From assembly GCA_009773805.1 (NCBI GenBank), contig WTXA01000001.1:248001-312000 (forward strand): a DNA stretch of 64,000 bases. The letters are read 5' to 3'. The notes under the pieces were generated by a model. The model did not search any database. It was not told the origin of the DNA and was given only the letters and a program-made list of their open reading frames with translations. The DNA is from Fusobacteriota bacterium. Lineage in GTDB: Bacteria > Bacillota > TC1. The position numbers were made by a program, and so were the translations under genes. Numbering within the stretch: the stretch's first letter is position 1; the number at the start of each line of letters is the position of its first letter. This document shows positions 21,518 through 33,771 of this stretch, in pieces.

Positions 21518-22453
21518 CTATAACATATTCTTTTTTCTCATCAAGTACCAAACAGATGCTGCTATCATTATACTCATTATAAATATTAATAGAGTCATCA
21601 AAGGATTCGAATCAAAAGGCATTGGTAAATTCATTCCAAAGAAGGAAAACACCATCGTAGGAATAGCTAAGATAATAGTAACTCCTGCTAAAATTTTCAT
21701 AACATTATTCAAATTATTTGAAATAATTGAAGCAAATGCATCCATCAAACCTGTAAGAATATTACTATTTATCTCCGACATTTCAATCGCTTGTCTTGTT
21801 TCAGTTAAAACATCCTCAAGTAAATCTTCATCTTCCTCATACATAGGAAGTACATTTGTTCTAAATATCTTTTTCATAACTATTTCATTAGCTTTCAAAG
21901 AAGTTGTGAAATACAGCAAACTTTTCTCCAAGCCTAGTAGTTTTATAAGTTGTTCGTTTTGCATAGAGCCATGCAAAGATCTTTCAAGTTCTCCTGTCTT
22001 CCTATCAATGAATTTTAGAAATTTCAAATAATAGGTGGCAGTTTTATAAAAGATCTGTAAAGCAAATCTTGTTTTCTTTAAAGTTGAAAGTGTTTTTACA
22101 CTTCTAGTTATAAAATCTTGTAAACAATTGGTCTCTTCAAGACAAACAGTAATGAAATGATCATTTACAATTATAATTCCTAAAGGAATGGTATTATAGA
22201 TTATTAATGACTCGCCTTCCTCTTCTTCTATAGGCACATTAATAATAAATAAAACTTGGTCATCTTCTATATCTATTCTTGGTCTTTCCTCTGAGTCTAG
22301 AGGAGCTTCTAAAAATTCCAATAAGGCTCCAGTTTCTTCACTGATTTTGACTAGCTCTTCCTTACTTGGATTTATGATATTAATCCAATTATGACTATCT
22401 TTATTATCAACAATGTTTAGTTTGTTTTCTATTGTTTTGTAAGCTTTTACCAT
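21518..22453 (-). CDS. corA: CorA family magnesium/divalent-cation transporter
   Basis: This is a pentameric membrane channel for Mg2+ (possibly Co2+ or Ni2+). The 311-residue protein has a long acidic cytoplasmic domain (about 1-245) and two C-terminal membrane helices. The first ends in the diagnostic GMN (FFGMNLPMP, near 272), and the tail is basic. The ATG is preceded by AGGAGG at 5 bases. It is last in the nadK-argR-recN run, but a short leader ORF and a hairpin over its ribosome site lie in between. Confidence 0.93.
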   Translation of the reverse strand: MVKAYKTIENKLNIVDNKDSHNWINIINPSKEELVKISEETGALLEFLEAPLDSEERPRIDIEDDQVLFIINVPIEEEEGESLIIYNTIPLGIIIVNDHFITVCLEETNCLQDFITRSVKTLSTLKKTRFALQIFYKTATYYLKFLKFIDRKTGELERSLHGSMQNEQLIKLLGLEKSLLYFTTSLKANEIVMKKIFRTNVLPMYEEDEDLLEDVLTETRQAIEMSEINSNILTGLMDAFASIISNNLNNVMKILAGVTIILAIPTMVFSFFGMNLPMPFDSNPLMTLLIFIMSIMIAASVWYLMRKKNML

Positions 22454-22454
22454 A

Positions 22455-22478
22455 TAGGCCTCCTGTCCGGATTGCCTA
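22455..22478 (-). promoter_or_regulatory. Hairpin around the corA ribosome binding site
   Basis: On the minus strand TAGGC (22474-22478) can pair with GCCTA (22455-22459), placing AGGAG (22460-22464) in the loop just before the corA ATG. The 5-prime arm begins with the stop codon of the leader ORF. A competing pairing, GGGTTG (22491-22496) with CAATCC (22470-22475), shares its end. This is read by eye; folding energy was not computed. Confidence 0.4.
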
Positions 22479-22541
22479 GATGTTAACAGACAACCCTAAT
22501 ATTTTTTTTAATAATGTTCTCGATGTCCCTGGGTCATCCAT
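22476..22541 (-). CDS. Short leader ORF upstream of corA (21 aa)
   Basis: ATG at 22541 is followed by 20 sense codons and TAG. A near-perfect GGAGGTG (22548-22554) precedes it at 6 bases, so it should be translated efficiently. The peptide begins MDDPGTSRTLLKK: two acidic residues and a proline directly after Met, then a basic, leucine-rich stretch with an A8 run in the codons. It starts 26 bases after the recN stop and ends 22 bases before the corA ATG. The acidic/proline start recalls Salmonella MgtL (MEPDPTP). It might also be a remnant N-terminus of a longer protein. Confidence 0.55.
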   Translation of the reverse strand: MDDPGTSRTLLKKILGLSVNI

Positions 22542-22567
22542 TTAACTCACCTCCACTAAATTTCAGT

Positions 22568-24247
22568 TTACACTTTTTTTTTACTTAATGCAAATAAAAT
22601 CATCTCTTTACTTTGCACCTTACTTGCATTGAAATTATCCTTCCCTCCAAGCATTCTGCTCAATTCTTCAATTTTATCAATTTCACTATCAAGACTTATA
22701 GCTTCAATAAAAGTTCTACTGTCTACCTCTTTCTTTGAAACTGCTATAATTCTATCAGCGAAAGCCCCCATAATTGCTGAATGGCTGACACAAATAACTT
22801 GTCTTTTTCTTCCAATCTTTTCTAATGCTTCTGCTACTTTTAGAAGTGCCTCACCACCAACACCTGAGTCAATTTCATCAAATATTAAACTTGGAATAAT
22901 ATCGTATTCGGCTAAAACTCCTTTTAAGGCTAACATTACTCTAGATATTTCTCCTCCTGAGGCTATTTTCTTCAATGGTTGTATCCCTTCACCAATATTA
23001 GGTGAAAAGTAAAATTCAACTATATCTAGACCATTTTCCCCTGGATCTTCTCTTAAAGCAAAATTTATATCAAAACCATTTTCATATATATTTAGTTCTT
23101 TTAACTTATTCTTAATTCCAGATATTAATTGTAAAGCAGCTTCATTTCTTAATTTAGTAAGAATTCCAGATTTTTCATTGTAGAGAGCCAATTTTTCAGA
23201 TATTTCATTTTCTAAATCAATTTTCAATTGGTTTATATTTGAAAATTTCTTTATTTTATCTTCCATTTCATTTCGTTTTTCAATGATTTCTAAAACTGAC
23301 TTTCCATATTTTCTTTTAAGCTTATTAACTTCAGCAATTCTATTTTCAATACTATTAATTCTATCTTCATCATAATCAAGATTATTATAATAGTTTTTGA
23401 ATTCATTACTTAAGCTATCAATCTCATAATATAAATCACTGAATTTAGCTGTTAACGAATCTAGCGAAGGGTCTAGACTAGAAATTTCTTTTAATGTAAA
23501 AGAAACACTGTTTAATCTATCCACAATACCATTTTCATTTAATTGGCTATAAATAGAACTTGCTTTTTTCATTAGTTTCTCGCCGTTAAGTATTCTAGTT
23601 CTATCTTCTCTTAACTTTAAATCTTCCTCTTCACTTAAATTTGCATCATCAATTTCTTTAATTGCAAATTCATAATAGGAAATCATATCCTCTTTTTCAT
23701 TAAATGCCAGTTCTTTTCTTTTATTTAGTAATGATTTATATTCTAGATAAATAATTTTTACATCTTCTAGTGAATGATTATCTTTTTTTGTGGTCTTTAA
23801 AAATTTGTCGACCAGTTCCAATTGTTTGTCATTAGACATTATGCTTTGTTCTTGATTCTGCCCATGAATATCGAATAGATATGAACCTATTTTTTGATAA
23901 ACATTCAATGGCGCTGTTTTATAATTTATCTTACACTTATTAGCACCTGAGACTGAAATCTCACGTGACATAAAAATTTCGTTCTCTTCAATTTCAATTA
24001 GATCTAAATTATTCAATAATAATCTTAAATCATTTTCTATATTGAAGTACCCCTCTACTGTCGCTCTGTCTTCACCTCTTCTAATAAATTCAGAACTCGC
24101 TCTTTTACCACATAATATCCCTATACTATCAAGAAGAATGGATTTACCAGCACCCGTTTCACCCGTTAGTACATTCAATCCATCTGAGAATTCGATATTC
24201 AATTGTTCAATTAATGCAAAGTTTCTAATTCTTAGTTCCTTTAACAT
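22568..24247 (-). CDS. recN: DNA repair protein RecN
   Basis: This SMC-like ATPase acts early in double-strand break repair. The 559-residue protein has Walker A GETGAGKS (29-36), a central coiled-coil region (about 160-370), the ABC signature SGGEISRV and a Walker B IFDEIDSGVGG. The start overlaps no gene: argR ends one base upstream. It follows argR in the conserved nadK-argR-recN order. In spore formers spoIVB and spo0A follow recN; here a corA leader follows. Confidence 0.96.
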   Translation of the reverse strand: MLKELRIRNFALIEQLNIEFSDGLNVLTGETGAGKSILLDSIGILCGKRASSEFIRRGEDRATVEGYFNIENDLRLLLNNLDLIEIEENEIFMSREISVSGANKCKINYKTAPLNVYQKIGSYLFDIHGQNQEQSIMSNDKQLELVDKFLKTTKKDNHSLEDVKIIYLEYKSLLNKRKELAFNEKEDMISYYEFAIKEIDDANLSEEEDLKLREDRTRILNGEKLMKKASSIYSQLNENGIVDRLNSVSFTLKEISSLDPSLDSLTAKFSDLYYEIDSLSNEFKNYYNNLDYDEDRINSIENRIAEVNKLKRKYGKSVLEIIEKRNEMEDKIKKFSNINQLKIDLENEISEKLALYNEKSGILTKLRNEAALQLISGIKNKLKELNIYENGFDINFALREDPGENGLDIVEFYFSPNIGEGIQPLKKIASGGEISRVMLALKGVLAEYDIIPSLIFDEIDSGVGGEALLKVAEALEKIGRKRQVICVSHSAIMGAFADRIIAVSKKEVDSRTFIEAISLDSEIDKIEELSRMLGGKDNFNASKVQSKEMILFALSKKKV

Positions 24248-33630: not shown

Positions 33631-33644
33631 AAAATTGCTTAAAA

Positions 33645-33750
33645 GCATCTTCTTTCATCCAGACTTTACTGTCGGCTCTAGAATTAAACTAGATCAGCTT
33701 GCGCTCGCGGGCTGTACCGCCGGTATGGAATTTCACCGTTCCCCGAAGAA
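33645..33750 (-). promoter_or_regulatory. FMN riboswitch (RFN element)
   Basis: The minus strand carries the conserved RFN elements in order. TCTTCGGGG forms P1 with the 3-prime GAAGA. Then come GGAACGGTGAAATTCC, CCGGCGGT, AGCCCGCGAGCGC, the variable stem around CTAGTTTAATTCTAG, GCCGACAGT, and GTCTGGATGAAAGAAGA at the end. It lies upstream of ribU, the expected target. Confidence 0.96.
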
Positions 33751-33771
33751 ATATTTATAATTTCTTTTTAA

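Follow-up and report, generated by a model that had tools for sequence, protein, structure and literature searches.

A candidate Mg2+-sensing translational leader with an acidic/proline start upstream of corA in Firmicutes

In erm-type translational attenuators, a ribosome held on the leader frees the Shine-Dalgarno (SD) sequence of the downstream gene by a four-arm logic. In Salmonella MgtQ, a 1:2/3:4/2:3 arrangement was verified by disrupting and compensatory changes, and Asp2 and Glu5 of the leader peptide are required (PMC8092293). On MgtL of Salmonella and E. coli, ribosomes dissociate at the acidic/proline sequence EPDP when Mg2+ is low, and this raises mgtA (PMC11282234). The enteric CorL is a uORF upstream of corA that is inversely linked to corA expression, via Rho (PMC11552253). 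At M. tuberculosis pe20, as far as the accessible part of the report goes, uORFs lie downstream of an M-box that controls the uORF as its target; in contrast to the locus described here, no acidic leader that switches the SD of a Mg2+ transporter is described in that part (PMC12810186). In B. subtilis, poly-Asp motifs, and Asp-Pro motifs when EF-P is absent, stall ribosomes (PMC11381351).

Our locus lies in the window, that is, the whole stretch of 64,000 nucleotides of DNA that was analysed; the leader, its arms and corA are on the (-) strand. A sequence-only reading of this DNA had noted an ORF with a GGAGGTG SD and a Met-Asp-Asp-Pro (MDDP) start 22 bases ahead of the corA ATG, and we confirmed it: the leader ORF (MDDPGTSRTLLKKILGLSVNI and a stop; 21 codons; 22476 to 22541) is conserved among relatives, begins about 26 nt past the stop of its upstream neighbor, recN (end at 22568), and has its stop exactly 22 nt from the corA ATG (22453); its SD is TGGAGGTGA (22547 to 22555), in which GGAGGTG is kept among the MDDP relatives. 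The same reading had suggested that an A8 run in the leader codons might allow slippage; the run is present but is broken in the congeners L004-L006, so it is not conserved and the suggestion lacks support. The proposed regulated gene, corA (21518 to 22453), encodes a 311-residue CorA-family Mg2+ transporter that matches PF01544 (E = 1.1e-49); against the NCBIfam ‘corA’ equivalog it scores 120 bits, below the cut-off of 200.75 bits, so it does not belong to the best-characterised branch of CorA. A second, distant CorA-family protein (23% identity) is encoded elsewhere in the genome (G000:C1:692267-692821), and the window also contains an FMN riboswitch (33643 to 33754, (-), 105.7 bits).

The 301 bp leader region is present in a single copy in its own genome. 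At the leader, an Rfam search matched no curated RNA family; a covariance-model search for the M-box (RF00380) had no match in the window or in its genome, and a search of that genome for MgtE had none. With neither M-box nor MgtE in its genome, this corA therefore carries the leader alone.

The arrangement resembles that of MgtQ and mgtB, that is, a short ORF with a strong SD in the intergenic region immediately ahead of a gene for a Mg2+ transporter (PMC8092293). The likeness extends to the N-terminus, where MDDP satisfies the criterion of Asp2/Pro4 with a second acidic residue within the first five, and to the RNA, in which predicted 1:2 and 3:4 pairing hides the ribosome-binding site of the transporter gene, 2:3 pairing frees it, and a leader ribosome covers region 1. 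However, the gene in the window is corA after recN (mgtE or mgtA in some relatives), not mgtB in the mgtCB operon; MgtQ is enteric and has 8 codons, whereas the leaders of the Firmicutes relatives have about 20-45 codons and are often in tandem with an M-box; and MgtQ is backed by mutants, whereas the evidence for the Firmicutes leader comes from sequence only. With MgtL the leader shares an acidic/proline N-terminus (MDDP in the window, the literal EPDP or EPEP in the corA leaders of Bacilli), but MgtL controls Rho-dependent transcription termination, whereas the predicted output of the window leader is access to the corA SD, and no sequence relation is apparent beyond the motif. CorL is likewise a uORF upstream of corA, but E. 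coli CorL has a UUG start and few acidic or Pro residues, whereas the window leader has ATG, a strong SD, MDDP and a hairpin predicted to hide the corA SD. The M-box (ykoK, RF00380) provides Mg2+ control of the same genes and precedes the leader in many relatives; however, it is missing here, and its aptamer senses free Mg2+, whereas the leader would sense Mg2+ via the ribosome. The erm-type attenuators differ in their antibiotic-dependent stalling, which does not involve an acidic/Pro start, and in their unrelated genes. Because gene, lineage and sequence differ, we do not class the leader as MgtL, CorL or MgtQ itself; by its inferred function, it belongs with MgtQ and MgtL.

Loss of the ORF from relatives that keep corA would have refuted a functional leader; the opposite was found. 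The MDDP start (22530 to 22541), which is the proposed site of Mg2+-sensitive pausing or abortion, is kept together with its SD in 6/6 of the corA-bearing members of the family of the window that we examined (L002-L007), and the leader also occurs in three genomes of a sister family, f2 (L008-L010), and in further genera. In the corA upstream regions (61 genomes), both families invariably have GGAGGTG-n-ATG-GAY-GAY-CCN; codons 2, 3 and 4 differ only synonymously among 13 MDDP leaders, and the central part of the peptide varies freely. By a loose definition, an acidic/proline leader precedes corA at 82/206 loci, which by their family labels span about 20 GTDB families of Firmicutes; no leader was detected at the other 124 of the 206 corA loci, that is, at more than half. 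The acidic residue and Pro are kept in distant clades: leaders in Clostridia are mostly of the form M/V-D/E-x(1,2)-P (MDDP, MDGDP, VEGDP, MDSGP, MDDHP), and those in Bacilli (Mesobacillus, Peribacillus, Schinkia, Paenibacillus, Anoxybacillus and Scopulibacillus) have EPDP, EPEP or DPEP a few codons further in. Where Pro is absent, the acidic position 2 persists (MDDGG, MESDDD, MDGSKG). Among relatives, the leader stop may lie as close as about 9 nt to the gene or more than 140 nt away from it.

The contig of L039 is filed as Chryseobacterium sp. ISL-80, and its corA and leader are almost identical to those of Mesobacillus (L046); judging from the sequence, the record probably stems from a Bacillus and is mislabelled. 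Two records named Methanosarcina (L055, L095) have corA products that are 47-48% identical to these Firmicutes CorAs, and no leader was detected in them.

Among uORFs whose SD matches over at least 6 nt, the strict motif, that is, a start with M/V-[DE]-x(1,2)-P, is found in 40/67 of those ahead of corA (60%) vs 1/281 of those elsewhere in the same loci (0.4%). Two pattern scans over 398 whole genomes, in neither of which corA was used, returned 14 and 6 matches; 19 of these 20 are directly upstream of corA-family genes (one, L223 in G125, adjoins a distant CorA paralogue), and reversed-pattern controls returned 0 matches. The sole match not upstream of corA (L224, G191:C3:379927) is an 11-codon mini-ORF, MDDPGRNNYHF, with GGAGGTG and with no CorA or M-box nearby; it may be a matter of chance or the remnant of a lost corA leader, and we set it aside.

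The genomic context in relatives connects the leader to Mg2+. Of the corA loci examined, 19/60 of those with a leader have an M-box immediately 5′ of it (11/20, 4/20 and 4/20), vs 0/20 of those without a leader; two loci that were scored as leaderless or loose, L155 and L186, have an M-box together with acidic-start ORFs that the strict rule missed (MDAGPS and MDSDGD, respectively). In a reverse search that started from the M-boxes in 199 genomes, the stretch between M-box and gene was inspected for SD-led ORFs that start with [MV][DE], and representatives of the gene classes behind the M-boxes were checked. Such an ORF is present at 20/25 loci when the gene encodes CorA (a set partly picked for the presence of a leader), at 19/42 when it encodes MgtE, at 4/6 when it encodes a P-type MgtA and at 0/9 when it encodes an ABC permease; overall, 48/96 of the SD-led uORFs in this stretch start with [MV][DE], vs a background of 5.5%. 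We regard the link between leader and Mg2+ as strong because acidic leaders of a similar kind also stand ahead of mgtE and P-type mgtA, again behind an M-box.

Acidic-start leaders between an M-box and mgtE are seen at L232, L236, L238, L240, L245, L246, L257, L258, L262, L264, L271, L273, L276, L284, L295 and L297, and those between an M-box and a P-type mgtA at L233, L237, L294 and L296. At five mgtE loci (L245, L246, L262, L269, L277) the leader ORF and the start of mgtE overlap out of frame for about 58 nt; translation of the leader would thus cross the mgtE start.

The RNA from the leader start to corA is predicted to contain four arms. Arm 1 (AAUGGAUGACCC, 22531 to 22542) would pair with arm 2 (GGGUUGUCUGUU, 22485 to 22496) over 12 bp when the leader start is free of ribosomes; arm 2 would pair either with arm 1 (OFF) or, over 10 bp, with arm 3 (ON); arm 3, the anti-SD arm (UAGGCAAUCC, 22469 to 22478), would pair either with arm 2 or with arm 4 (AGGAGGCCUA, 22455 to 22464), which includes the corA SD and would, in the OFF state, be masked by arm 3. 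The two predicted folds exclude each other: 1:2 with 3:4 masks the corA SD, and 2:3 exposes it.

We calculated what it costs to open the corA SD for each position of a ribosome on the leader, allowing only the RNA ahead of the ribosome to pair. For the window, the predicted cost is 6.7 kcal/mol without a ribosome; with the P-site at codons 4-10 it is 3.4 kcal/mol, at codons 12-16 it is 10-13 kcal/mol, and at the last two codons it is 3.0 kcal/mol. Late positions exceed early ones by 9.7, a difference reached by 0/300 dinucleotide shuffles of the middle (mean 0.8, maximum 6.9). Across 67 corA leaders, the mean opening cost is 5.3 early and 12.8 late, vs 6.6 and 8.2 in shuffles (Wilcoxon p = 7e-13; as with all P-values given here, shared ancestry is not corrected for), and 57/67 are individually at p ≤ 0.04 (25 shuffles each). 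The same behavior is computed for 14/18 further leaders, which are mostly those of mgtE and mgtA and include two of corA, and an independent stem-overlap test gives p ≤ 0.05 for 37/77 leaders. For the sister family f2 (L008-L010) and for L223, the computed switch is not above shuffles; both the MDDP leader and helix 1:2 are retained in f2. The MFE z-score of the window alone is unremarkable (-1.1). The scan by ribosome position supersedes that stem-overlap test of the four arms, which was confined to ungapped stems and missed the genus of the window because its SD hairpin has an internal loop.

In Bacilli the arms differ in sequence: a segment further downstream that resembles UAUCAACUC pairs with the leader SD, and GAGGAAGYC, which directly follows the EPEP codons, pairs with GGCUUCCUC, a segment that also pairs with the SD GAGGAGG. 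Covariation was counted on the Bacilli set only, because a joint MAFFT alignment of f1 and f2 misplaced arm 2 owing to their different leader lengths. In this set, helix P1 and helix 2:3 are 92.8% paired, vs 34-53% when slid, and four pairs are changed on both sides; the SD hairpin 3:4 has no covariation in the Bacilli set because the SD is fixed. Between the leader and corA in the window, no terminator was found: the SD hairpin lacks a following U-run, so translational control is preferred over transcription termination, and the hairpin, as modeled, fits translational control.

We consider it likely that the leader is a cis-acting, Mg2+-sensing translational attenuator of corA; translation of the leader, Mg2+-dependent stopping at MDDP and the sign of the response are inferred. 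Ribosomes would load efficiently on the leader. With ample Mg2+ they would pass arm 2 (beyond about codon 11), 3:4 would pair and corA would be off; with no ribosome on the leader, 1:2 plus 3:4 would also keep corA off. At low Mg2+, ribosomes with the Met-Asp-Asp-Pro nascent chain may pause or drop off near the start, and incoming ribosomes would keep arm 1 covered and arm 2 bare, so that 2:3 could form, the corA SD would be free and the importer would be made. The early-open/late-closed sign suits an importer, because an importer is needed at low Mg2+. The suggestion of the sequence-only reading, that this is a Gram-positive Mg2+-sensing corA leader, thus gains support from the conservation of the leader, the upstream M-boxes in relatives, the leaders of mgtE and mgtA and the predicted switch, with Mg2+ sensing itself still an inference. 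The ORF, its SD, its conserved start and its association with Mg2+ genes can be read from genomes alone, and the exclusive helices remain predictions. The single Asp-Asp-Pro is weaker than the EPDP of MgtL or the poly-acidic runs tested to date.

The geometry in the window would also allow translational coupling, in which the SD hairpin is opened by a ribosome that reads the leader to its end; corA would then be on after full translation and off after drop-off. In favor of this, the leader stop and corA are a mere 22 nt apart, arm 3 would lie under a ribosome terminating there, and the computed opening cost is down to 3.0 over the last codons. However, that geometry is not conserved, given the range of stop-to-gene distances in relatives, whereas the early-open/late-closed pattern is, and coupling would turn the importer on at high Mg2+; we think it improbable.

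We give equally little weight to a signal other than Mg2+, that is, stalling at Asp-Pro that EF-P or ABC-F factors relieve, or the supply of proline or aspartate, with corA as a downstream response. Asp-Pro stalls B. subtilis ribosomes that lack EF-P, and EF-P or YfmR relieves this (PMC11381351); in Salmonella, mgtA reportedly responds to EF-P (PMC6460261), and mgtP responds to charged tRNA-Pro (PMC8092293). But the leader tracks Mg2+ genes (corA, mgtE, mgtA) and M-boxes, the acidic position 2 stays in the leaders from which Pro is gone, and EF-P, ABC-F or proline inputs could feed the same switch without displacing Mg2+.

In the family of the window the bases of arm 1 are those of the MDDP codons, so the RNA structure alone might be conserved, with MDDP kept for these bases and the ORF incidental. 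This is very unlikely: every change seen in codons 2-4 is synonymous, the Met-acidic-x-(x)-Pro start persists in other clades whose bases and pairing differ, with GTG starts (VEGDP, VDGDP) and the EPEP of Bacilli among them, and a correctly spaced SD is kept throughout. A functionless chance ORF, for which it can be said that short ORFs are common and that the 11-codon L224 matches the pattern away from corA, is rejected with next to no doubt, since specificity, conservation and the switch statistics contradict it and the comparative data refute it as far as sequence can.

With somewhat less confidence than for corA in the window, we favor the broader reading that acidic/proline leaders, with the ribosome as the Mg2+ sensor, form a class found throughout the phylum Firmicutes that controls CorA, MgtE and P-type MgtA; often behind an M-box, they would make a two-tier transcriptional and translational switch, and in lineages without an M-box, e.g., the genus of the window, the leader would be the only recognised control. 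A literature search found no Gram-positive corA or mgtE leader of this kind; most subscription journals and all preprints were outside its coverage. As far as searched, what appears to be new is the phylum (Firmicutes), corA as the target in this lineage, the coverage of three transporter families and the arrangement in tandem with the M-box. Ribosome-destabilising Mg2+ leader peptides are known from a few enteric genes; the same logic across Firmicutes, if true, would make ribosome stability a general bacterial gauge of Mg2+, explain the regulation of corA in species without an M-box and offer a genetic system in Bacillus in which the idea can be tested directly. The anatomy of numerous M-box leaders would also need revision, in that they contain an element that is unannotated and probably translated.

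The ABC-type permeases with an M-box directly ahead and no acidic leader are those at L231, L241, L256 (BPD_transp_1), L259, L260, L266, L267, L268 and L275; these are possibly Mg2+-linked ABC transporters.
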